DNA of 64,000 nucleotides from Curtobacterium sp. VKM Ac-1376 (GTDB taxonomy: Bacteria > Actinomycetota > Actinomycetes > Actinomycetales > Microbacteriaceae): NCBI RefSeq assembly GCF_015351025.1, contig NZ_JADKRV010000002.1:124001-188000 (forward strand), given 5' to 3'. Of the stretch, positions 11,965 through 24,551 are shown piece by piece (positions within the stretch are counted from its first letter, which is position 1; each line of letters starts with the position of its first letter). The notes below the pieces were generated by a model. It saw only the letters and a list, made by a program, of their open reading frames with translations. It was not told where the DNA came from and did no database searches. The translations under genes were made by a program, and so were the position numbers.

Positions 11965-12672
11965 TCAGCAGCGACCGCGCGGCTCCGCGCCGAGCAGCAG
12001 GTCCGGACGGACGCGACGCGTCCGCTCCACCTGCTGCTCGTGCCGCCACGCGGCGACCCGGCCGTGGTGCCCGCTGAGCAACACCTCGGGCACGGAGTAG
12101 TCTCGCCAGGACGCAGGCTTGGTGTACGAGGGGTACTCGAGCAGGCCGTCCTCGTGGGACTCCTCGACCAGGGACTCGGGATTGCCGACGACCCCGGGGA
12201 CGAGCCGTCCGACGGCCTCGATCATCGCCATCGCGGCGACCTCGCCGCCGTTGAGCACGTAGTCACCGAGCGAGAGCTCGACCACGGTCGCGCGGGTCGA
12301 CGCCCACTCGAAGACGCGGGCGTCGATGCCCTCGTACCGACCACAGGCGAAGACGAGGTGGTCGTGCTCGGCGAGCGAGCGCGCGATGGACTGCTTGAAC
12401 GGCGTGCCGGCCGGCGTCGGGACCACCAGGGTCGACGACCCGTCATCACGGAGCAACGATGACAGCGCCTGGGCCCACGGCTCCGGCTTCATCACCATGC
12501 CGGCACCGCCGCCGTACGGGGTGTCGTCGACGGTCCGGTGCCGGTCCGTGGTCCACGAACGCAGGTCGTGCACGTGCAGGTCGAGGATCTTCTCCTGGCG
12601 CGCCCTGCCCAGCAGGGAGACGTCCAGTACGGAGAAGAACTCCGGGAAGATCGTCACGATGTCGATGCGCAC
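11965..12672 (-). CDS. trmD: tRNA (guanine-37-N1)-methyltransferase
   Basis: 235 residues. TrmD methylates G37 of tRNAs with SAM and prevents frameshifting. It belongs to the SPOUT class; the trefoil-knot SAM-binding segment is visible as [12 protein letters not shown], and the N-terminus [13 protein letters not shown] and [10 protein letters not shown] are typical. The start at ATG 12672 lies four bases after the rimM stop, so the two genes form one unit with khpA and rpsP upstream. Confidence 0.96.
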
Positions 12673-12676
12673 GGGG

Positions 12677-13237
12677 CTACGCCTCGTCGGTCGGCGGCGT
12701 GATCGTCTCCGGGCGCGACGTGTCCTCCGGGTCCTCGAACAGACCGGCCGGCGGCGTCACGGTGACGGTGCCGGCGGCGATGTCGACCGCGGGCACGATG
12801 GCCGAGACGAACGGCACGAGGACCTCACCGCTGGACGGCGTGTCGATCGCGAGCAGGTCCTGCGCGGGCATGTGGTCCACGCGGGCGACGGTGCCGACCT
12901 CGACGCCGTCGCGCAGGACCTTCAGCCCGACGAGCTGGTGGTCGTACCAGGCGTCGTCCTCACCCGTTTCGGCGTCGGCGTCCTGCTCGACCCAGAGGAT
13001 GATGCGCGCCAAGGACTCAGCCCCGGTGCGGTCGTCGATCCCGGCGAAGAACGCGACGGGGTGACCGTTGTACCAGCGGAGTTCGTCCAGCTCGAGGGTC
13101 TTGCCCGACCACGGTGAGTCGTCGGGGACCTGGAGCGTGAAGGTGGCGCCCGGGGTGAACCGACGATCCGGGTCGTCGGTGTAGAGCTCGAGCTTGATGC
13201 CGCCCTTGAGCCCGTGCGCCTTGGTGATTCGACCCAC
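12677..13237 (-). CDS. rimM: Ribosome maturation factor RimM
   Basis: 186 residues. RimM binds S19 and helps mature the 30S head. The N-terminal RimM barrel begins [12 protein letters not shown] and the C-terminal PRC-like barrel covers about 100-165. Homologues usually have a few residues (xQLR) before VGRI; these are encoded here, but no ATG, GTG or TTG precedes them, so GTG 13237 is the start used. GGGAG is 15 bases upstream, further than usual. Confidence 0.92.
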
Positions 13238-13256: not shown

Positions 13257-13493
13257 CTAGGAATCGGTGTCCACCACGTCGACCCGCACGCGCTTGCCGT
13301 CGGCGAGAGCCGCGACGAGGGTACGGAGCGCCTTCGCGGTGCGCCCGGAGCGGCCGATCACGCGGCCGAGGTCCTCGGGGTGCACACGCACCTCGAGGAC
13401 CTCGCCGCGTGGGGAGGTGGAGCTGGCGACGCGCACGTCGTCAGGGTGATCGACGATCCCCTTGACGAGGTGCGTCAGCGCGGATTCGAGCAA
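13257..13493 (-). CDS. khpA: KH-domain RNA-binding protein KhpA
   Basis: 78 residues with a single KH domain; the GXXG loop is visible in VIGRSGRTAKALR. KhpA proteins bind RNA and in other Gram-positive bacteria partner KhpB in cell-division control. Location between rpsP and rimM is the standard arrangement. The start is TTG 13493, three bases after the rpsP stop codon, implying translational coupling. Confidence 0.92.
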   Translation of the reverse strand: MLESALTHLVKGIVDHPDDVRVASSTSPRGEVLEVRVHPEDLGRVIGRSGRTAKALRTLVAALADGKRVRVDVVDTDS

Positions 13494-13496
13494 GGA

Positions 13497-13910
13497 CTAC
13501 GCCTCGGTCGTCTCGTCGGCGGTCTCGGCCTCGTCAGCCTTGGCGGCGGGGGCCGTCTTCTCCGACTTGGGCTTGAGGACGGCCTTCTTCGAGGAGTCGA
13601 CCTGGAAGGGCTGCTTCGGCTCAGCGAGCTTGACCTTGGACTCGGTGTCCTTCTCGCCCTTGAACTTGGCCCAGTCGCCGGTCAGCTTGAGGAGGGCCGC
13701 GACCTGCTCGGTCGGCTGTGCGCCGACGCCGAGCCAGTAGAGCGCACGCTCGGACTGGACCTTGATGACCGAGGGCTCCTCGGTCGGGTGGTACTGACCG
13801 ATCTCCTCGAGGACACGACCATCGCGCTTGGTGCGCGAGTCGGCGACGACGATGCGGTAGTAGGGCGCACGGATCTTACCGAGACGCTTCAGACGGATCT
13901 TGACAGCCAC
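13497..13910 (-). CDS. rpsP: 30S ribosomal protein S16
   Basis: 137 residues: an S16 core of about 80 ([20 protein letters not shown] at the start) plus an acidic/basic Ala-rich tail of about 50 residues typical of high-GC actinobacteria. It starts at GTG 13910 with GGAG 6-9 bases upstream. It is the first gene of rpsP-khpA-rimM-trmD. The 164 bases upstream should contain its promoter and the end of the flavoenzyme operon. Confidence 0.97.
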
Positions 13911-14074
13911 AATTGCTCCTGTTTGCTTTCGTTGTGGTTGAACTGGAACCGCGGGCGTGGGGGCACACACGGCGAAAGCTCGAGAGAGATCGCTCACAGC
14001 TGGATAGAGGGTCGAGCTGCGGCGATTCGACCGTTCATTCTTGCAGATTCCTGGCCGGGATGCGAGCCGACTCG

Positions 14075-16210
14075 CTACGGGGCGAGTCGGCGGACCGCTT
14101 CGAGGGCTTCGGACGTCGCCCGAACCGCGTCCACGCTCCGCGCGTCGCGTGCACCACCGACGACGGCGTACGGCACGCCGGCCGACCGGAGGCCCGTGAC
14201 GAGCCCGTCAGGCGTGTCGCCCTCGGCGTCGATCGCGCGCTCCTGCCCGGCGCAGACCACGACGGTGTCCGCCGGCACCCCGACCTCGTCCCCGTGCTCG
14301 TCACGGATCCAGAGCACCCCGGGTTCGACGCGCAGGTACTCCTGGACGCCGCCGATCATCCGCACGCCGGCGTCACGCAGTCGGCCGATGGCGACCCAGC
14401 GCGAGGTGATCCCGATCCCCTGCCCGAACTTGCCCGCTCGGCGCAGCACCGTCACCTGCGACCCCGGCCGGGTGGTGCGCGGCGCCGTGGGGAGCCGCTG
14501 CGGGACGTCGCCGACGAGCACCTCGGAGACGTCGAGGTCCCACCGCGCCGCGAACTCCCCGGCCCGCACGACCTCGTCCGGCGACTCGGTCAGGAACGCC
14601 GCGGTGTCGACACCGATGCCGCCACCGCCGATGATCGCGACGGTGCCCTCGGGGACGCCGTCGCGCAGCGCCCGTTCGTAGGACAGCACGTGCGGCAGGT
14701 CGCTGCCGGGGACGTCGATGCTCCGCGGGACCACCCCGGCCGCGAGCACGACGGCGTCGCTGTCGACGAGGTCCCGAGCCGTGGCCGGGCGTCCGAGGCG
14801 GATCGTCGCGCCCCGCTCCGCGAGCTCGGCACGGGCGGACCGCACCGTGGCGGCGTAGTCCTCCTTGCCCGGCACGAGTGCAGCGAGGCCGAACTGGCCA
14901 CCCAGGCGGTCGGACGCCTCCCAGAGGGTGACGTCGTGGCCCCGTCGAGCGGCGTCCACGGCGGCGGCGAGTCCGGCCGGCCCGCCCCCGACGACGTCGA
15001 CGCGCTTCGGGTCGGTCGTCGGGCGTGCGGGGAACGCGACTTCGCGGGCGGCCCGGGGGTTGACGAGGCAGGACACCGGGGCGCCGACGATGGAACGGTC
15101 GAGGCACGCCTGGTTGCAGCCGATGCACGTGTTCACCAGGGCGAACCCGCCGGCGAGTGAGCGCGAGACGATGGCCGGGTCGGCGAGGAACGGCCGGGCC
15201 AGGGCGACGGCGTCGATCAGCCCGTCCTGCAGCACCGTTTCACCGTCGCGCAGGTCCGTCATCCGGTTCGAGGCGATCACCCGGACGTCCGGGTACGCCG
15301 ATGCCCGGACGACGCCGGCGATCCGGGCGGCGTAGGCGAGCCAGGCGCCGTGCGGCACAGCAGCCTGCACGGTCGGGGTACGGGACTCGTGCCAGCCGAT
15401 GCCGACCGAGATCCCGTCGAGTCCGAGCGGGAGCAGGTCGTGCACGAGGGCGTCGACGTCGTCGTCGGTCGACGAGCCGGGCATCAGGTCCGCGCCGGAC
15501 AGCCGGATCGTCACGGCGAGCTCGGGCACCGCGGTGCGCACGGCCCGGACGACCTCGATGGCGAAGCGCCGACGTCGGACTGCGTCGCCGCCCCACTCGT
15601 CGTCGCGCAGGTTGGTGAGCGGCGACTGGAACTGGTTGATCAGGTACCCCTCGGACGCCATGATCTCGACGCCGTCGAACCCGACCTCGCGGGCGGTGCG
15701 GGCGGCGGCGGCGAAGTCGTCGATGGTCCGCTCGACCTCGGCCGACGTCAGCTCGGTGGGCACCACGCCGCGGGCAGCCGCCCAGGGCAGCGCTGACGGG
15801 GCCACGACGCGCTGCGGGTCGCCGTGTCGATCCGCCAACCCTGCGGCGAGCGCGTACCGCCCCGCGTGGAACAGCTGCGCGAGGATCGTCCCACCCTCGT
15901 CGTGCACGGCCCGGACCGCGACGCGGAACCGTTCGTCCGCTCCCCCGGCGCCGAAGACCGCGAAGTCCGGACCACCCCGCGCCTCGTCGTTCACGGCGAT
16001 GCCGCCGGTGATGATGCACGCGGCCCCGCCGGCCGCACGTTCGCGGTAGAACGCTGCCATGCCGGCGCCGCCGTCGTCGCGCACCTCGAGCCCGGTGTGC
16101 ATCGAGCCCATCACCACCCGGTTCGCCAGGTGCAGGGGCCCGAGGGTCCAGGGTGACGCGACGGTCAGGAGGGAGTCCGGCACGACGGGGGCGGAAGCGA
16201 CGCTGCTCAT
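14075..16210 (-). CDS. FadH/Old-Yellow-Enzyme-like dienoyl-CoA reductase
   Basis: 711 residues with the architecture of 2,4-dienoyl-CoA reductase (FadH) and related iron-sulfur flavoenzymes. The N-terminal OYE TIM barrel binding FMN covers about 15-350. The 4Fe-4S cysteines are in CIGCNQAC and a later SCLVNP. The FAD/NAD(P) domain (about 400-705) has dinucleotide motifs [12 protein letters not shown] and [12 protein letters not shown]. These enzymes reduce conjugated C=C bonds of enoyl- or dienoyl-CoAs with NAD(P)H. It starts at ATG 16210, four bases after the SDR stop, as the last gene of the proposed cyclohexanecarboxyl-CoA operon. Its substrate could be a cyclohexadiene-carboxyl-CoA (inference). 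Confidence 0.85.
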
Positions 16211-16214
16211 ACGC

Positions 16215-17078
16215 CTATTCTGCGGCGTCCACGCCCGGACCGTCAGCGGGCAGCACCGCGTCGCGGAGGGGCGACGTGGTGTCCGACCAGTACGGCGGCG
16301 CGATGACGGTCAGGCCGCCGTCGACCGACAGCACCTGGCCGGTGATGTAGCCGGCCTTGTCGGACAGCAGGAAGTCGACGGCGTCGGCCATGTCGTCGGC
16401 GGTCCCGGGGCGCTGCAGCGGGAGCTTCTCGAGCACGCTGTCCATGGGCGCCTGACCGGGGACCCTCGTGTAGAAGTACTCGAGCGAGTCGGTGTCGATG
16501 AGCCCGCCGTTCACCGCGTTGACGGTGATCTGCCGTGGGCCGAACTCGACCGCCATGTACTTCATGTAGGCCTCGCTCATCGCCTTCGCGGCCCCGAGCG
16601 CGGCGTAGGTCGGGAACGCGCGGAGCGACCCGTACGACGTCACGACGACGATGCGGCCGCCGCGGTCCATGAGTGCGGCGGCCCGCTGCGCACCGAGCAC
16701 GAACGAGCGCGCGTTCGTCGCGTAGCTGCGGTCGAGGTGGTGCAGCTTGAGGTCCGCCACGGGCTTGAAGGCGCTCGCGGCGGCGTTCGCGACGAACATG
16801 TCGAGGCGCCCGTAGGTGTCGCGGACCAGGTCGAACAGGGCGTCGATCGACTCCGGCTGCTCGATGTCGACCTGCGCCGTGATGCCGTCGCCGCCGGCGG
16901 CCCTGACGTCGGCCAGCGATTCCTCGGCCAGGTCGGCGTTGCCCTTGTAGGTCACCACGACGGTGACGCCGCGCTGGCCGAGCTTCTGCGCGAGCAGGCG
17001 GCCGATGCCGCGCGACGCGCCCGTGATCAGTGCGATAGGCGCGCTCAGCGCGATGGGTACGTTGGTGCTGTCGGTCAC
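16215..17078 (-). CDS. SDR enoyl reductase, FabL/ChcA-like
   Basis: 287 residues, a short-chain dehydrogenase/reductase. The NADP-binding motif TGASRGIG lies at about residues 19-26. The active site reads TSYGSLRAFPTYAALGAAKA, so Tyr and Lys are six residues apart; this Y-x6-K spacing is typical of enoyl reductases such as FabL rather than the Y-x3-K of ordinary SDR alcohol dehydrogenases. That fits a ChcA-like role, reducing 1-cyclohexenylcarbonyl-CoA to cyclohexanecarboxyl-CoA. It lies between the acyl-CoA dehydrogenase and the flavoenzyme. A hairpin in the 84-base gap upstream may lower its expression relative to the first two genes. FabI-like fatty-acid enoyl reductase is the alternative. 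Confidence 0.8.
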   Translation of the reverse strand: MTDSTNVPIALSAPIALITGASRGIGRLLAQKLGQRGVTVVVTYKGNADLAEESLADVRAAGGDGITAQVDIEQPESIDALFDLVRDTYGRLDMFVANAAASAFKPVADLKLHHLDRSYATNARSFVLGAQRAAALMDRGGRIVVVTSYGSLRAFPTYAALGAAKAMSEAYMKYMAVEFGPRQITVNAVNGGLIDTDSLEYFYTRVPGQAPMDSVLEKLPLQRPGTADDMADAVDFLLSDKAGYITGQVLSVDGGLTVIAPPYWSDTTSPLRDAVLPADGPGVDAAE

Positions 17079-17106
17079 TGCGGTCCTTCAGGTGAGTGGG
17101 AGACGA

Positions 17107-17144
17107 ACTGGAGGCGCGGGGCGGGCCCGCCACGGGCCTCCAGT
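17107..17144 (-). terminator. Intra-operon hairpin (GGAGGC type)
   Basis: A 9-bp perfect inverted repeat, ACTGGAGGC (17107-17115) with GCCTCCAGT (17136-17144), lies between the acyl-CoA dehydrogenase and SDR genes. Its loop is GC-rich and partly self-complementary. It could be a partial terminator or a 3'-end stabiliser for the first two genes. Confidence 0.55.
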
Positions 17145-17162
17145 CCGGTGGTTGGTTGCGGT

Positions 17163-18338
17163 CTAGAACCCGGCCCGGCCGGTCACGACGGCGCGACCGA
17201 CGATCAGCTTCTGGATCTCGTTGGTCCCCTCTTCGAAGCGCTGCGCGCGCGCGTCGCGGTAGACGCGCTCGATGGCGTTGCGCTTCCAGTAGCCCTGTCC
17301 ACCGTGCACCTGCAGGGCCTTGTCGGTGACCCGCGCAAGCATGTCGACCGCGACCATCTTCGAGGCACTGGAGAGCGTGCCGGCGTCCGGGCGGTCCTCT
17401 TCGTAGGCGCGGGCGGCCTCGAGCACCAGGGCGCGGGCCGCGGCGATGTCGGCGTAGTTCTCGGCCAGGTAGAACTGGATCGCCTGCCGGCTGGAGAGCT
17501 GCTTGCCGAACGTCTCGCGCGTGTTCGCGTACTCGACGGCGAGCTCGTTCGCGCGCTCGGCGAGGCCGACGGCGCTCATCGCGACGGACACGCGGCTCGG
17601 CAGCAGGAAGCCGCCGAGTGCGACCTCGAGGCCCTGGCCCTCGTCGCCGAGCAGCGCGCTGGCGGGGACCGGCACGTCGGTGAAGCGCAGGATCGCGTGG
17701 TCGGTGCCGCGGATGCCCATGGTGTCCGAGTCGTCGATGACCTCTGCACCGGGCAGGCCGCTGTTCGGCATCAGGAACGCGACGGTGCCGTCCTGGCCGG
17801 TGGTGCCCTCGAGGCGGGCGGCGATGAGCCAGTAGTCGGCCTTGACGCCGAACGTGATGAGGTGCTTCTCACCGTTCATCACGTACGTGTCACCCTCGCG
17901 GCGGACGGTGGTGCGGATGTCTGCGCCGGTGCCCGCGGTCGCCTCGGTCAGCGTGAAGGCGACGAGCTTGTCACCGGCGACGCTCGGCTTGACGACCTGC
18001 TCGATCTGCTCGGGCGTCGCGTACGGGGCCATCGCGCGCCAGGTGCCGTTGATGACGTGCACGAGCATGCGGATGGAGGCATGCGAGCGGGAGATGGTCT
18101 CCATGATCTCGAGGTAGCGCGAGAACGGGATGTCCCGGCCGCCGAGCTCCGTCGGGGCGGCGAGACTCAGCCACCCCTTGTCCTTGAGCTCCTGGAACAG
18201 CTCGGGCGCGACCTGACCGGTGCGCTCGATCTCCTCGGCCCACTCCTCACCCCGACCGCGGACCCACTCGGTGACCTCGGCCTTGAGCTGCTGGAACGTG
18301 GTCTCGTCCAGCGACTGGTCGGTGGCGGTGATCGTCAT
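17163..18338 (-). CDS. Acyl-CoA dehydrogenase family flavoprotein
   Basis: 391 residues with complete acyl-CoA dehydrogenase architecture: N-terminal helical domain (about 5-120), middle beta domain with AFTLTEATAGTGADI (FAD and substrate binding) and the C-terminal four-helix domain. The C-terminal Glu in FEEGTNEIQK matches the catalytic-base position of this family, and LQVHGGQGY is the FAD contact. The ATG at 18338 overlaps the stop of the fusion gene (ATGA), so the two are translated together. In the proposed pathway it could introduce or, in reverse, reduce a ring C=C bond on the CoA thioester; cyclohexanecarboxyl-CoA dehydrogenase is a known activity of this family. The direction is not decidable from sequence. 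Confidence 0.88.
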   Translation of the reverse strand: MTITATDQSLDETTFQQLKAEVTEWVRGRGEEWAEEIERTGQVAPELFQELKDKGWLSLAAPTELGGRDIPFSRYLEIMETISRSHASIRMLVHVINGTWRAMAPYATPEQIEQVVKPSVAGDKLVAFTLTEATAGTGADIRTTVRREGDTYVMNGEKHLITFGVKADYWLIAARLEGTTGQDGTVAFLMPNSGLPGAEVIDDSDTMGIRGTDHAILRFTDVPVPASALLGDEGQGLEVALGGFLLPSRVSVAMSAVGLAERANELAVEYANTRETFGKQLSSRQAIQFYLAENYADIAAARALVLEAARAYEEDRPDAGTLSSASKMVAVDMLARVTDKALQVHGGQGYWKRNAIERVYRDARAQRFEEGTNEIQKLIVGRAVVTGRAGF

Positions 18339-21300
18339 CGTGTCTGGTTCTCCTTCGTCGCGACGAGCGCGGCTGCCTGCTCGCGCAGGACGTTCTTCTG
18401 GACCTTGCCCACCGCGTTGCGCGGGAGTTCGGCGGTGTACTCGAGTCGTTCCGGCCAGTAGTACTTGCTCACGCCGGCGTTGTCGAGGTACTGCTGCATC
18501 CCCGCGAAGTCGAGCGGCTCGTCGGTCCGCGCGTTGACGACCCAGGCGCAGGCGCGCTCGCCGAGCCGCTCGTCGGGCATCGCCACGATCGCGATGTCGG
18601 TGACGAGCGGGTGCTGGTACAGCAGGTTCTCGATCTCCACCACGGGGATCTTCTCGCCACCGCGGTTGATGACGTCCTTGACGCGCCCGGTGATCGACAG
18701 GAAGCCCTTCTCGTCGACCTTCGCCAGGTCGCCGGTGCGGTACCAGCCGTCCGCGGTGAAGACGTCGTCGGTCAGGTCGGGGCGGTCGAGGTAGCCGTCG
18801 AACATCGTCGGCGAGTGCAGCTCGAAGTTGCCCTCGGTGTCGGCGGGCAGCTCGTGGCCCTCGTCGTCGACGATGCGGATCCGGATGCCCGGCAGCCCCC
18901 GGCCGTCGTGTCCGTAGGCCTCGGCAGGGTCGTCACTCGGGCTGGACAGGGCCCCGAGGCAGGTCTCGCTCGTGCCGAAGGCGCCGAGGATGGCGCTGCC
19001 GAGCACCGTGCTCGCCCGCTGGGCCAGGGCCCGGGGCACCGCGGCACCGGTCGGCACGAAGATCCGGAGCGACTCGGGCTGCGGTGCGCCGGCCTCGACC
19101 AGGTCGACGAGGTCGGTCAGGAACGGCGTCGCGCACTGCACGAAGGATGCCCCCGCGACGCCGAACGCCTGCTCGAGCGCGACCCGCCCGTCCCACACCG
19201 GCTGGAGGACCTGCGGTGCTCCGAGCCGGAACGCCAGCAGCATGCCGTACAGGAACCCGGTCTGGTGGGCCAGCGGCGACGGGATGTAGATCCGGTCCGC
19301 GCTCGTCAGGCCGGACTGCGCCACGTGCATCGCGGTCGCGAGCCCGAGCGTGCGATGCGGGTGTTGGACGCCCTTCGGCTCCCCCGTGGTGCCCGACGTG
19401 AAGAGCAGCTGGCAGACGTCGTCCGGGCCGGGGGCGTGCGAGGCGATCTGGTCGAGGTCGACGTGCACGGCCGCGAGGGCGTTGTCGAAGTAGCGCCAGT
19501 GCCAGGCGCTCGCGACGACGCGGTGCAGGGCGTCGGCGGGCAGCGGCGGCTGGTTCGTCGGGGTGTCCCCCTGGCCGCGTGCCTCGGCGCGCAGGACGAT
19601 GACGTGCTCGACCGACAGCCGGCGGTCCTGGGCCTTCGCCTCGTCGATGACGTCGAGCAGCTCGAGCGCGGGCCGGCGCTTCCGGAACACGTTCGGCAGG
19701 AACACCACGCGGGCGTGGGACCGAGCGAGGGTCATGGTCGTCTCGCGCGGGCCGAAGACCGGCATGATCGGGGTCGCGACGGCACCGATCTGGATCGTTC
19801 CGAGGGTGATCGAGACGAACTCGCGCCAGTTCGGCAGCTGCATCGCCACCGATTCGCCCCGGCGGACGCCGAGTTCGAGGAGCAGGGCGGAGACGCGGTC
19901 GGCCTCGTCCTGCAGCTCCTTCCACGTCGTGTTCACCGGTGCGGCACCTCCGACCTCGATGACGGCGAGGCCGTCGGGGTCGGCCTGCGACAGCGCGCGG
20001 ACCTTCTCGCTGAGGACCAGGGGGTCGGCGTCGAGGCCGGGGAGTTCGGGCAGGGCGGGGGTGGGCCGAGCGGCAGGGGCGGGCTGCGCGGCAGGGGAGG
20101 GCCGCACGGCGTCGAGCGCTTCGTCCCTGCCGTCCGTCGCCGTGGTCGGGGGCGTCTGCGCCGGCGTGCCGAGGTGCGTCCGGACACCGGCGGCCTCGGC
20201 TTCCTCGATCCGGTCGTCGTGCGCCGCCCGGGCAGCGAGTCCGTCGCCGACGGACATGTCGAGGCCGACGGTGTTCATCGCCTCGAGGAAGGTGGGGTAG
20301 GAGATCCGGTAGGCGCGCGGGTAGGTGAGCCCCGACGTCCCCTCGGCCCGCGACGCTGCGACGGCGAGCGACATGAGCACGCGGTGGTCGTTGAACGACG
20401 ACATGGGTGCGCCGTGCAGGCCCCCGGGTCCGACACCGGTGACGCGCAGTTCGTCCGCGCCCTGCTCGGCGCGGCCGCCCATCCGGTTCAGCTGGAGCAT
20501 CGCCGCCACGCGGTCGGACTCCTTCAGCCGGATGTGCGCCACGTTCCAGAGTCGCGTCGTGCCCTCGGCGAAGGTCGCCATCGTCGACAGGATCGGCAGC
20601 AGGTCCGGGATCGGCTGGCAGTCGATGTCGAGCGGGCGCAGCGGGGACCCGTCGTGCTCGATCCGCACGAAGCCGGTCTCCTCGTCGATCCGCATCGGTA
20701 CCCCCATCGCCGTCGCGAGGTCGAGGAACTCGCTCTCGGGGTGGTCCGTCTCGGCGGTGGTCGTCGCCGTCATGCCGCGCAGCAGCAGGTTCGACTCGCG
20801 GATGCCCGCAGCGGCGATGCCGAACGCGGCCGAGCCGATGTCCGGCGGGATGACGTAGTCGTGCGGGGTGGCCTGCTGGCCCGCCGGGATCCGGTACTCG
20901 AGCCAGTCGTCGGAGACGTCGACCCGGAGCCCGAACTGGCGCATCATCCGCACGGTGAGTTCGACGTACGGCTGCTCGTTGAGTCGCCCCCCTGTGATGT
21001 GGATCCGGGTCTCCTGCTCGGCGAACGGCGCCACCAGGAGCAGCCCGGACACCCACTGCGAGAGCGTGCCGGCGATCGAGACGTCGCCGCCGCGGGGCCG
21101 CTTCGGCTGGACGGTCACGGGCGGGCAGTCGTTCGTCGCCTCGAGGTCGATGCCCATCTGCTCGAGCGAGGTGAGCAGCGCCTTGATCGGTCGGCGCTGG
21201 AAGTACTTCATGCCCGACAGCGTCATCGGTCGGTCGGCCAGCGAGGCCAGGCCGGTCATGAAGTACAGGGTGGTGCCGGAAGACCCCATGTTGAGCAGGC

Positions 21301-21583
21301 CGTCCGCACCGCGCGAGCCGTGGTCGACCACGTCGGTGGCCTCGTACCGGCCGCCGAGCCCGGTGACGTGGTAAGCGTTGCCGCGGCGCTTGATGTCGAC
21401 GCCGAGGGCGCGGAGCGTCCCCACCGTCCACTCCACCTGCCGGGTGGCGCTGATCCCGGAGACGACACTCGTACCCCTCGCGAGCGACGCGAGCACCAGC
21501 GCGCGGTGCGCGTGGTACTTCGAGACCGGGATGTCAAGTGCTCCGACGAGCGGGCCAGTCGTCCCGCGCACCACCAGCTGCAT
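18335..21583 (-). CDS. Fusion: EPSP-synthase-like domain + acyl-CoA ligase
   Basis: One uninterrupted 1082-residue frame encodes two enzymes. Residues 1-442 are an AroA (EPSP synthase)-type double barrel, with SK (21-22), R27, LSQW, PIPD, RLKESDR and FNDHR retained. The residues equivalent to E. coli Ser23, Arg100, Arg124 and Lys411 are Tyr23, Tyr107, Tyr127 and Ile by hand alignment, so phosphoenolpyruvate use is doubtful. Residues 443-515 are an Ala/Pro/Thr linker. Residues 515-1082 are an AMP-forming CoA ligase with FTSGTTGEPKG, GAFGTSET, YRTGD, INRGGEKI and the catalytic Lys in AVGKVQK. Start ATG 21583; the stop overlaps the next gene. I infer shikimate-derived acid activation plus an elimination step. 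This is not the housekeeping AroA. Confidence 0.87.
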   Translation of the reverse strand: MQLVVRGTTGPLVGALDIPVSKYHAHRALVLASLARGTSVVSGISATRQVEWTVGTLRALGVDIKRRGNAYHVTGLGGRYEATDVVDHGSRGADGLLNMGSSGTTLYFMTGLASLADRPMTLSGMKYFQRRPIKALLTSLEQMGIDLEATNDCPPVTVQPKRPRGGDVSIAGTLSQWVSGLLLVAPFAEQETRIHITGGRLNEQPYVELTVRMMRQFGLRVDVSDDWLEYRIPAGQQATPHDYVIPPDIGSAAFGIAAAGIRESNLLLRGMTATTTAETDHPESEFLDLATAMGVPMRIDEETGFVRIEHDGSPLRPLDIDCQPIPDLLPILSTMATFAEGTTRLWNVAHIRLKESDRVAAMLQLNRMGGRAEQGADELRVTGVGPGGLHGAPMSSFNDHRVLMSLAVAASRAEGTSGLTYPRAYRISYPTFLEAMNTVGLDMSVGDGLAARAAHDDRIEEAEAAGVRTHLGTPAQTPPTTATDGRDEALDAVRPSPAAQPAPAARPTPALPELPGLDADPLVLSEKVRALSQADPDGLAVIEVGGAAPVNTTWKELQDEADRVSALLLELGVRRGESVAMQLPNWREFVSITLGTIQIGAVATPIMPVFGPRETTMTLARSHARVVFLPNVFRKRRPALELLDVIDEAKAQDRRLSVEHVIVLRAEARGQGDTPTNQPPLPADALHRVVASAWHWRYFDNALAAVHVDLDQIASHAPGPDDVCQLLFTSGTTGEPKGVQHPHRTLGLATAMHVAQSGLTSADRIYIPSPLAHQTGFLYGMLLAFRLGAPQVLQPVWDGRVALEQAFGVAGASFVQCATPFLTDLVDLVEAGAPQPESLRIFVPTGAAVPRALAQRASTVLGSAILGAFGTSETCLGALSSPSDDPAEAYGHDGRGLPGIRIRIVDDEGHELPADTEGNFELHSPTMFDGYLDRPDLTDDVFTADGWYRTGDLAKVDEKGFLSITGRVKDVINRGGEKIPVVEIENLLYQHPLVTDIAIVAMPDERLGERACAWVVNARTDEPLDFAGMQQYLDNAGVSKYYWPERLEYTAELPRNAVGKVQKNVLREQAAALVATKENQTR

Positions 21584-21712
21584 GCGTACCTCTTCCCTGG
21601 AGCGAACATTTCAACGGTACGCCCGGGGTGGAACTACCGAGAGTTCCATCCGCACGATCGGGACAACCGATCGTTGTGCGTGTCCGACAACGATCCGGGC
21701 AGGATGTACAGC

Positions 21713-22843
21713 ATGGACATCCGCTTCACCGAGTCCCGCCCGTCGACCATCGGCGTCGAGTGGGAACTCCCGCTGGTCGACCGCTCGACCGGCGACCTCG
21801 CGCCCCGCGCCCCCGCCGTCATCGCCGCCGTGCACGAACGGCTCGGTGACCACGACCGCGTCACCGAGGAGCTGCTGACCAACACCGTCGAGGTCGTCTC
21901 GAGCGTCCACGACCGCGTGGGCGCGGCGACGAGTGAGTTGTCCGGCATCATCGGCGAGGTCGTCGACGCCGCCGAACCGCTCGACGCGCAGGTGATGTGC
22001 TCCGGCACGCACCCGTTCGCACAGTGGGACCAGCAGGAGATCACCCCGGACAGTGAGCACTACACGACCCTCATCGACCGCACACGCTGGTGGGGACGCC
22101 AGATGCTCATCTGGGGCGTCCACGTGCACATCGGTATCGACGACCGTGACAAGGCGCTCCCGATCCTCGGTGCGATGCTCGCCTACGTCCCGCACGTGCA
22201 GGCGTTCACGGCATCCAGCCCGTTCTGGGCCGGCATCGACACCGGGTACGCCTCGAACCGGGCGCTCATGTTCCAACAGCTGCCGACGGGCGGCTTGCCT
22301 CCTGCCCTCGGCGCCTGGGCCAACTTCGAAGAGGTCGTGGGCGACCTCACGCACACCGGTGTCATCGACAGCGTCAAGGACCTGCGCTGGGACATCCGCC
22401 CGTCGCCGGGGTGGGGCACGCTCGAGAACCGTGTCTCCGACGGTATCTCGACACTGCACGAGGTCGGGGCCGTCACCGCGCTCGTGCAGTGCCTGGTCAC
22501 CGACATGTCCGACCGCCTCGACGCCGGTGAGACCCTGTCGACGATGCAGCCCTGGTTCGTCCGCGAGAACAAGTGGCGAGCGGCCCGCTACGGCATGGAG
22601 GCGGAGATCATCCTCAACGCCGGGGGCGACGAGCGACTCGTCACCGACGACGTGCACGATCTGGTCGAGCGACTCGACCCGGTGGCCGAACGCCTCGGCT
22701 GCCAGGACGAGCTGCACCACCTCGACACCATGATCGCGAACGGCGCGTCGTACCAGCGTCAGCTCCAGGTCGCGCAGGAGAACGGCGGCGACCTGCGCGA
22801 GGTCGTCCGCCACCTGGTGACGGAGTTCCGCGACGCGCTCTAG
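21713..22843 (+). CDS. YbdK-type glutamate-cysteine ligase-like carboxylate-amine ligase
   Basis: 376 residues of the GCS2/YbdK family, ATP-dependent ligases joining a carboxylate (often glutamate) to an amine. The start region TIGVEWELPLVD carries metal-binding glutamates and the central WWGRQMLIWGVHVHIGI segment is characteristic. Relatives serve in glutathione, ergothioneine or gamma-glutamyl amide formation; actinobacteria mostly lack glutathione, so the substrate is open. The frame is open far upstream, but ATG 21713 has AGGA eight bases before it and matches the family start. It is divergent from the fusion gene; about 130 bases between them hold both promoters. Confidence 0.87.
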   Translation: MDIRFTESRPSTIGVEWELPLVDRSTGDLAPRAPAVIAAVHERLGDHDRVTEELLTNTVEVVSSVHDRVGAATSELSGIIGEVVDAAEPLDAQVMCSGTHPFAQWDQQEITPDSEHYTTLIDRTRWWGRQMLIWGVHVHIGIDDRDKALPILGAMLAYVPHVQAFTASSPFWAGIDTGYASNRALMFQQLPTGGLPPALGAWANFEEVVGDLTHTGVIDSVKDLRWDIRPSPGWGTLENRVSDGISTLHEVGAVTALVQCLVTDMSDRLDAGETLSTMQPWFVRENKWRAARYGMEAEIILNAGGDERLVTDDVHDLVERLDPVAERLGCQDELHHLDTMIANGASYQRQLQVAQENGGDLREVVRHLVTEFRDAL

Positions 22844-22940: not shown

Positions 22941-22988
22941 GACGGACGGGAGGCCCGTGGCGGATCCGCCACGGGCCTCCCGTCCGTC
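22941..22988. terminator. Perfect 48-bp palindrome between gcs2-like gene and ffh
   Basis: Every base pairs in this 48-bp palindrome (24-bp arms, centre GGATCC at 22962-22967). It lies between convergent genes, 97 bases after the ligase stop and 12 bases beyond the ffh stop. Its arms contain GGGAGGC, the shared core of several intergenic palindromes here. It is best read as a bidirectional terminator. Confidence 0.8.
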
Positions 22989-23000
22989 AGGTGGTCGCGA

Positions 23001-24551
23001 CTAGCGACCCAGGAACTTCTGCAGCGACGCGAGCTCTTCCTCGGTCGGCGCCTTGCCGCCCTTGGCGCCGCCGAGTCCGAGTCCGGACCCCTGCGGGGCA
23101 GCCTGCGGCGCAGCCGCGGCACCGGCCGCGAGGGCCGCGCGCTTGGCCGGGTTACCGACCTTGGACTTCTTCTTGCCGCCCTGCTGCTGCTTCTTGCCGC
23201 CGTGCATGCCCGGGATCGGCCCCATGCCCGGCATCTGCGGCACGCCACCGCGGGCGACGGTCTTCATCATCTTCGCCGCCTGCTCGAACCGGTTCACGAG
23301 GGCATTCACCTCGGTGACGGTGGAGCCCGCACCGCGCGCGATGCGGAGTCGGCGCGAGCCGTTCAGCAGCTTCGGGAGCTCGCGCTCCTGCGGAGTCATC
23401 GACTGGATGATCGCCTCGGTCCGGACGATCTCGCGCTCGTCGAAGTTGTCGAGCGCCTCGCGCATGCCCTTCGCGCCGGGGAGCATGCCGAGCATGCCCT
23501 TGATCGACCCGGCCTTGCGGAGCTGCTGCATCTGCTGCAGGAAGTCGTTCAGGGTGAAGTTGTCGGTCGCGATCTTGTCCGCGACCTTGCGTGCCTCTTC
23601 CTCGTCGAAGGCACCCTGCGCCTGCTCGATGAGGGACAGGATGTCGCCGAGGTCGAGGATGCGGCTCGCCATGCGGTCCGGGTGGAAGGGCTCGAAGTCA
23701 TCGAGCGACTCACCCGTCGACGCGAACATGATCGGCCGGCCCGTGATGCTGGCGACCGACAGGGCCGCACCACCGCGGGCATCACCGTCGAGCTTCGACA
23801 GGACGACACCGGTGAAGTCGACGCCTTCCTGGAAGGCACGCGCGGTGTTGACGGCGTCCTGACCGATCATCGCGTCGATGACGAACAGGACCTCGTCCGG
23901 GTTGACCGCCTTGCGGATGTTCGCGGCCTGCTTCATGAGCTCGGCGTCGACGCCGAGACGACCGGCGGTGTCCACGATGACGGTGTCGTACTGCTGGTCG
24001 ACCGCGGCCTTGATGGCGTTCTTGGCGACCTTGACCGGGTCGCCGACGCCGTTGCCGGGCTCCGGCGCGAAGACGTGCACGCCGGCCTGCTCGCCGACGA
24101 CCTGCAGCTGCTGCACGGCGTTCGGTCGCTGGAGGTCCGCCGCGACGAGCATCGGGGTGTGGCCGTCCTTCTTGAGCCACTTGCCGAGCTTGCCCGCGAG
24201 GGTGGTCTTCCCCGCACCCTGCAGCCCCGCGAGCATGATGACCGTCGGCGGCTTCTTCGCGAACTCGAGGCGTCGCTGCTGCCCGCCCAAGATGCCGACG
24301 AGTTCCTCGTTGACGATCTGGACGACCTGCTGGGCCGGGTTCAGCGCGCGGTTGACCTCGTCGGAGAGGGCACGCTCGCGCACGGAAGCGGTGAACGCCT
24401 TGACGACCTCGAGCGCGACGTCGGCGTCGAGGAGCGCCCGCCGGATCTCGCGGACGGTGCCGTCGACGTCGGACGGAGTCAGCCGACCCTTGCTCCGCAG
24501 ATTGCGGAAGGTCTCGGTCAGCCGATCGGAGAGTGAGCCGAATTGCGCCAT
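23001..24551 (-). CDS. ffh: Signal recognition particle protein Ffh
   Basis: 516 residues. Ffh is the SRP54 GTPase that carries membrane-protein nascent chains to FtsY. The N domain begins MAQFGSLSDRLTETFRNLR. GTPase motifs are GLQGAGKTT (G1), DTAGRLGVD (G3) and LSKLDGDARGG (G4). The Met-rich M domain, binding 4.5S RNA and signal sequences, covers about 300-440 (GMLGMLPGAKGM). A C-terminal Lys/Gln/Gly-rich tail is normal for this phylum. It starts at ATG 24551 and ends next to the 48-bp palindrome. Confidence 0.97.
   Translation of the reverse strand: MAQFGSLSDRLTETFRNLRSKGRLTPSDVDGTVREIRRALLDADVALEVVKAFTASVRERALSDEVNRALNPAQQVVQIVNEELVGILGGQQRRLEFAKKPPTVIMLAGLQGAGKTTLAGKLGKWLKKDGHTPMLVAADLQRPNAVQQLQVVGEQAGVHVFAPEPGNGVGDPVKVAKNAIKAAVDQQYDTVIVDTAGRLGVDAELMKQAANIRKAVNPDEVLFVIDAMIGQDAVNTARAFQEGVDFTGVVLSKLDGDARGGAALSVASITGRPIMFASTGESLDDFEPFHPDRMASRILDLGDILSLIEQAQGAFDEEEARKVADKIATDNFTLNDFLQQMQQLRKAGSIKGMLGMLPGAKGMREALDNFDEREIVRTEAIIQSMTPQERELPKLLNGSRRLRIARGAGSTVTEVNALVNRFEQAAKMMKTVARGGVPQMPGMGPIPGMHGGKKQQQGGKKKSKVGNPAKRAALAAGAAAAPQAAPQGSGLGLGGAKGGKAPTEEELASLQKFLGR

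Follow-up and report, generated by a model that had tools for sequence, protein, structure and literature searches.

The closest described counterpart of the locus examined here is the Streptomyces gene cassette for cyclohexanecarboxyl-CoA (CHC-CoA). Streptomyces collinus, the ansatrienin producer, reportedly carries such a cassette as ansJKLM and chcA, and Rui et al. are said to have described that of the asukamycin producer in 2010; the Streptomyces ChcA enzyme performs several α,β-reductions. This type of cassette makes CHC-CoA from shikimate with clustered genes for an enzyme resembling 5-enolpyruvylshikimate-3-phosphate synthase (EPSPS), a ligase, a dehydrogenase, a ChcA-type reductase and a dienoyl-CoA-reductase-like enzyme. 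A gene cluster with the same enzyme kinds, which we take to be a CHC-CoA cassette of the Streptomyces kind, was found in a 64,000-nt stretch of the genome of Curtobacterium sp. VKM Ac-1376 (the window, by which we mean this whole stretch). The operon very probably makes CHC-CoA from shikimate as a primer of type II fatty-acid synthesis, leading to ω-cyclohexyl fatty acids, rare membrane lipids whose chains terminate in a six-membered ring. As a prediction for the window's strain this reading is well supported, because the operon is also carried by Curtobacterium pusillum ATCC 19096 and by Propionibacterium cyclohexanicum DSM 16859; the enzyme steps are predicted from sequence.

The four genes run on the minus strand from 21583 to 14075. 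The first encodes a 1082-residue fusion (18335–21583, ATG start) of an EPSPS-like domain (residues 1–455, 20219–21583; PF00275 at residues 10–436, 3.4e-77, and a 179.6-bit match to 8umj) with an acyl-CoA ligase domain (residues 501–1082, 18335–20083; PF00501 at residues 535–932 and PF13193 at residues 983–1060). It is followed by an acyl-CoA dehydrogenase-family flavoenzyme with N, M and C domains (17163–18338; ATG, 391 residues), a FabL-like enoyl reductase of the short-chain dehydrogenase/reductase (SDR) family (16215–17078; GTG, 287 residues; PF13561, Y158-x6-K165), and a FadH-type 2,4-dienoyl-CoA reductase (14075–16210; ATG, 711 residues; PF00724 and Pyr_redox_2). The fusion and dehydrogenase genes overlap by 4 bp (18335–18338), the SDR and FadH-like genes are spaced by 4 bp (16211–16214), and the 84-bp gap between the dehydrogenase and SDR genes contains a strong hairpin. 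The preliminary description had reported four same-strand genes of these enzyme types with the overlap and the four-base spacing, all of which the coordinates and Pfam domains confirmed.

A scan of named genomes yielded 209 relatives, the best 80 of which were analysed (labels beginning with L denote stretches of DNA from relatives). All five domains occurred in the same order and on the same strand in 72 of the 80, and the EPSPS-like and ligase domains lay in a single open frame in 70; four loci were cut by contig ends (L082, L088, L112 and L114), and four missed parts within the stretch examined at the chosen thresholds (L122, L123, L141 and L149). The ratio of nonsynonymous to synonymous substitution (dN/dS) among carriers was 0.04–0.19 in all 20 comparisons (four genome pairs, five domains). 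Since the five-domain order is conserved to this extent and dN/dS is so low, the operon is more than a chance arrangement. Within the genus, the fusion or its two halves were detected in 41 of 66 genomes, one of them fragmentary (G010). An even draw from the family gave 29 of 249 genomes (five belonging to the window's genus) in 13 of 85 genera, and a draw from the phylum gave 5 of 396 at E ≤ 1e-110, the window included. Two contigs of Eremiobacterota metagenome-assembled genomes (MAGs), L144 and L148, also carried the cassette, with an EPSPS-like domain at 54% identity, which suggests either transfer between phyla or misbinning. Plasmid carriage was considered and rejected: a tblastn search of PLSDB with the EPSPS-like domain returned 24 records, all below 32% identity, the domain being 27–32% identical to AroA of the plasmid collection and about 29% identical to AroA in E. 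coli records.

The link to lipids comes from the carriers themselves. C. pusillum AA3, DE0370 and DE0005 carried the cassette alongside ATCC 19096, and P. cyclohexanicum DSM 16859 was the only Propionibacterium among the best 80 of the 209 relatives. Passages of the published literature place ω-cyclohexyl fatty acids in both species (PMC5023266), with separate statements for C. pusillum (PMC3426160) and P. cyclohexanicum (PMC4190135); the earliest reports cited in these passages date from 1981 for C. pusillum and 1997 for P. cyclohexanicum (PMC3426160, PMC5023266). The finding of an orthologous operon in two species with such lipids supports the assignment to ω-cyclohexyl fatty acids made from the window alone. 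All five domains were also present in Herbiconiux ginsengi, H. solani and H. moechotypicola, and the relevant passage of the genus description allows that cyclohexyl-C17:0 may be present (PMC10011130). The same passage gives anteiso-C15:0, anteiso-C17:0 and iso-C16:0 as the predominant acids of H. oxytropis, the locus of which lacked the SDR and FadH-like genes in the stretch examined.

Several observations weigh against the lipid assignment. The operon was present in C. flaccumfaciens LMG 3645 and C. luteum JCM 1480, two species from which, to our knowledge, cyclohexyl lipids have not been reported. As to whether carriers make cyclohexyl lipids, the published passages agree in the case of C. 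pusillum and of P. cyclohexanicum and allow it for Herbiconiux. C. pusillum is the only Curtobacterium producer named in the passages cited (PMC5023266, PMC3426160), and this label is a loose one, four genomes bearing it being placed in four genomospecies in a passage of PMC8929003. Beside the window's own operon no ketosynthase gene was found. Alicyclobacillus was absent from the best 80 of the 209 relatives; the genes of that genus could be different or could have scored below these 80. Within the stretches examined, Cellulomonas L149 lacked the SDR gene; H. oxytropis (L122) and a Herbiconiux MAG (L123) lacked both SDR and FadH-like genes, the cassette there being limited to its EPSPS-like, ligase and dehydrogenase portions; and Arthrobacter L141 and the distant-family genomes L060–L062 had no FadH-like gene beside the cassette.

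The EPSPS-like domain is 33% identical to the host's own AroA, a normal enzyme encoded elsewhere in the genome (G000:C12:75432). Its ligand residues were compared by sequence alignment, using a list of known ligand residues with positions read off E. coli K-12 aroA. Eleven residues of E. coli AroA (1g6s) were kept in all 17 aligned operon orthologs (K22, R27, R124, S170, Q171, Y200, D313, K340, E341, R344 and R386). In contrast, the operon enzyme differed from E. coli AroA at seven ligand positions in all 17, namely S23Y, N94S, R100Y, loss of S169, S197E, N336H and K411 replaced by I (16 orthologs) or V (one), so that none of the 17 retained the set of ligand residues for phosphoenolpyruvate (PEP) and shikimate-3-phosphate expected of an EPSP synthase. 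The window's residues at the changed positions were found in 80 of the 80 named loci, or in 78 with two gapped near the N-terminus, and this invariance was partly built in at window residues 19–26 and 168–177, which the scan patterns spanned. Host AroA differs from the E. coli enzyme at N94, Y200, D313, N336 and K340 and is gapped in the K411 column; because it keeps S23, R100, S169 and S197, the changes at these four positions are the telling ones. Judged by the known roles of these residues, among which R100 and K411 are PEP ligands, PEP binding and the pocket for the phosphate of shikimate-3-phosphate are presumably altered while the acid–base residues remain, and an invariant glutamate, E203, occupies the position where EPSP synthase holds the substrate phosphate.

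These residues bear directly on the possibility that the domain is a spare EPSP synthase, such as an inhibitor-tolerant one, in a chance neighbourhood. The common fold and the many shared catalytic residues would fit such an enzyme, as would N94 and N336, which belong to the seven changed positions and are altered in host AroA too. However, the four telling changes were uniform in 17 of 17 orthologs, the matching residues recurred in 78–80 of 80 loci (gaps counted as misses), a CoA ligase shares the open frame of the domain in 70 of 80, and the genome already has a normal AroA. We therefore rejected a spare EPSP synthase on the ligand residues and regard it as highly improbable. With its fold and most catalytic residues kept but its PEP and shikimate-3-phosphate sites consistently changed, the domain is probably an elimination enzyme, and in the simplest case it would perform the elimination on shikimate itself. 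Separately, an EPSPS-like piece of about 350 residues (L072, 11962–12975) was seen in a Streptomyces-type genome with no other cassette part in the stretches fetched.

The best NCBIfam model for the ligase domain was cyclohexanecarboxylate-CoA ligase (TIGR03208), at 422 bits below the 792 cut-off. The dehydrogenase ranked acryloyl-CoA reductase first and cyclohexane-1-carbonyl-CoA dehydrogenase second, all far below cut-off, and kept its presumed catalytic Glu370 in 78 of 79 loci, with one gapped. The Y-x6-K spacing noted for the SDR was seen in 73 of 73 SDR-bearing loci. It is shared with the FabL-type enoyl reductase 3oic (176.6 bits over residues 15–259); however, the window's SDR scored below the NCBIfam FabL cut-off (228 versus 328 bits), and its operon context points to CoA esters. 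We propose that it is a ChcA-type 1-cyclohexenylcarbonyl-CoA reductase.

Similarity to enzymes of cyclohexanecarboxylate degradation, although below cut-off, also raises the possibility of a catabolic operon, in which a plant cyclohexane or shikimate-like carboxylate would be activated and degraded as its CoA ester; Curtobacterium lives on plants. Such a role appears quite unlikely: the operon and the six flanking genes scanned contained no hydratase, hydroxyacyl-CoA dehydrogenase, ring-opening hydrolase or thiolase, and contained reductases and an EPSPS-like enzyme instead, while the cassette occurs in species with ω-cyclohexyl lipids and has a FabF-like neighbour in 14 of 80 loci. Biosynthesis of CHC-CoA would proceed as follows. 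Conversion of shikimate to cyclohexanecarboxylate amounts to the loss of three waters and the gain of four H2, in agreement with the three dehydrations and four reductions reckoned initially. The EPSPS-like domain would remove a shikimate hydroxyl by 1,4-elimination without PEP, and the fused ligase would convert the carboxylate to its CoA ester. The dehydrogenase-like flavoenzyme and the ChcA-type SDR, aided by the FadH-like enzyme, would then complete the route to CHC-CoA by reductions and additional eliminations, with the α,β-reductions assigned to the SDR and the other redox or elimination steps to the dehydrogenase and FadH-like enzymes. FabH would accept CHC-CoA as the primer; PF08545, a family of FabH type, is matched five times in the window's genome.

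An alternative is that CHC-CoA, or a less reduced relative such as cyclohexenyl-CoA, serves a secondary metabolite rather than membrane lipids, and several Curtobacterium carriers are species for which no cyclohexyl lipid report is known to us. Passages of a Streptomyces study name CHC-CoA as the starter of antibiotics such as asukamycin and, equally, as a precursor of ω-cyclohexyl fatty acids (PMC4147253). Streptomyces-type genomes gave an EPSPS-like profile match in 3 of 150 and the whole cassette in 2 of 150, a rarity that fits a rare secondary-metabolite starter in that genus and counts in favour of the CHC-CoA assignment. The Streptomyces loci found had the five domains in the window's order, a single frame encoding the EPSPS-like and ligase domains. 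The two Streptomyces-type loci with the whole cassette were 52–63% identical to the window in the four biosynthetic domains and 47–48% in the FadH-like gene. In the window, however, the six scanned flanking genes (ffh, GCS2, rpsP, khpA, rimM and trmD) are not polyketide genes, and the lipids occur in both C. pusillum and P. cyclohexanicum, so that we consider a secondary-metabolite role unlikely. Unlike the Streptomyces cassette, the window's operon sits in a housekeeping neighbourhood between ffh and rpsP and most likely feeds fatty acids.

A FabF-like ketosynthase adjoined the cassette in 14 of the 80 loci, none of them in Microbacteriaceae. These loci came from Streptomyces, Streptosporangium, Solirubrobacterales, Acidothermus and other MAGs, and one Eremiobacterota (L137, L138, L139 and L150–L152 among them). 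Twelve of the 13 other copies were 63–90% identical to that of L137, and the copy of L144 was 41% identical; a Pfam scan also found a further AMP-binding enzyme in the L137 flank. The clustering of flanking genes, done for 27 chosen loci, was confused by shadow open reading frames in GC-rich DNA, and the Pfam scan covered a few of the clusters.

The FadH-like gene behaved differently from the rest of the operon. Its product has the old yellow enzyme and FAD/NADPH domains and the iron-sulfur motif CX2CX3CX11C (C362, C365, C369 and C381), the four cysteines being present in 71 of 73 loci and gapped in two. It matches FadH (1ps9) over nearly its full length (480.9 bits), including the 4Fe-4S cysteines. 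It differs from FadH in being coupled to the CHC genes in carriers and standing without them in non-carriers. The gene was kept in place at all 18 non-carrier sites fetched (18 of 22) and was under purifying selection there (dN/dS 0.10–0.18, four pairs); at one such site (L155, 2644–4944) about 170 bp of additional sequence interrupted it. No second full-length protein of this kind is encoded in the window's genome, and the gene persists where the others are lost; the FadH-like enzyme therefore has a function outside CHC-CoA synthesis, probably the usual reduction of 2,4-dienoyl-CoA. It may be replaceable within the cassette, given that the cassettes of L141 and L060–L062 had no FadH-like gene nearby. 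Thus, the gene set as a whole fits the CHC-CoA operon first suggested, whereas the inclusion of its fourth gene as specific to that pathway did not hold, since this gene persists at 18 of 18 non-carrier sites.

The operon occupies a conserved site. It is flanked upstream by a divergent gene of the GCS2 family (glutamate-cysteine ligase-like; 21704–22843, plus strand; PF04107, 1.1e-62; start at ATG 21704 or 21713) and by ffh (SRP54; 23001–24551, minus strand), and downstream by rpsP (ribosomal protein S16; 13497–13919, minus strand), beyond which lie khpA (13257–13493), rimM (12677–13237) and trmD (11965–12672). Where ffh and trmD lay on one contig, the operon was between them in 34 of 34 carriers, with a gap of 9.1–16.6 kb; in 22 non-carriers the gap was 4.8–9.5 kb, and the remaining 10 of the 66 genomes did not permit a call. 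The GCS2-family gene was matched at all five non-carrier sites compared as DNA. Several genera of Microbacteriaceae share this position: loci of Frondihabitans, Humibacter, Gryllotalpicola and Lacisediminihabitans, among others, had the operon at the same ffh–rpsP site, and those of Herbiconiux, Subtercola, Luteimicrobium, Streptomyces and Propionibacterium showed no ffh, rpsP, rimM or trmD within the stretches examined.

At 17 of the 18 non-carrier sites fetched the other operon genes were absent, and L164 also retained the SDR gene. Some non-carriers keep about 10–16 bases matching the SDR gene end ahead of the FadH start, a short remnant that may be kept instead as the FadH promoter. In a tree of 45 taxa built from five flanking genes (9 of 54 were dropped for missing genes), the carrier state required seven changes, at least six of them forced by well-supported branches, compared with 14.3 for shuffled labels; the five outgroup rows were all carriers, chosen as such, which partly sets the direction of change. 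About seven losses within Curtobacterium are probably the simplest reading, because the shared site and the SDR remnant agree with the tree. Horizontal insertion at ffh–rpsP within the genus was disfavoured by the site being the same in 34 of 34 carriers and in other genera and by the SDR-end remnant. It is possible that deletion alleles spread through recombination.

The leader between the GCS2-family gene and the operon (21584–21703, minus strand) was aligned for the window and 20 hand-chosen named loci. A −10-like box, TACCGT (21619–21614), upstream of the ATG at 21583 was exact in 18 of these 21 carrier leaders, and a Shine-Dalgarno-like stretch was well conserved among them; seven non-carriers of one clade had a different leader. 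The hairpin in the dehydrogenase–SDR gap (17106–17145, strand unassigned; −34.7 kcal/mol, z −2.45) is a copy of a GC-rich palindromic repeat, GGAGGC...GCCTCC, that also occupies intergenic spaces at 22945–22984 and about 24678. The pattern had five matches against 0.22 expected, one of which (14184) fell within the FadH-like gene, and the repeat also occurred near trmD in relatives. The copy in the dehydrogenase–SDR gap may tune expression.

A literature search of open-access scope, weak evidence of absence as such, found no publication that treats genes for CHC-CoA in either Curtobacterium or Propionibacterium. With that weight, what appears to be new is that the cassette is assigned in Curtobacterium and P. 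cyclohexanicum, that its site is conserved, that it was probably lost repeatedly with FadH spared, and that the EPSPS site has changed. More tentatively, and just short of an evenly balanced judgement, the EPSPS fold may have become a PEP-independent shikimate dehydratase, with the ligase fusion handing over an unstable diene acid, and the operon may represent a membrane-lipid trait of Microbacteriaceae in the ribosomal ffh–rpsP neighbourhood, switched off by repeated deletion that spares FadH.

Taken together, the operon offers a concrete genetic basis for the ω-cyclohexyl fatty acids of C. pusillum and P. cyclohexanicum. Its EPSPS-like domain is a tractable example of a well-known fold with a probably changed reaction, and close relatives that have no biosynthetic genes at the same site serve as natural knock-outs. 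The distribution of the operon predicts many more producers in Microbacteriaceae and beyond.

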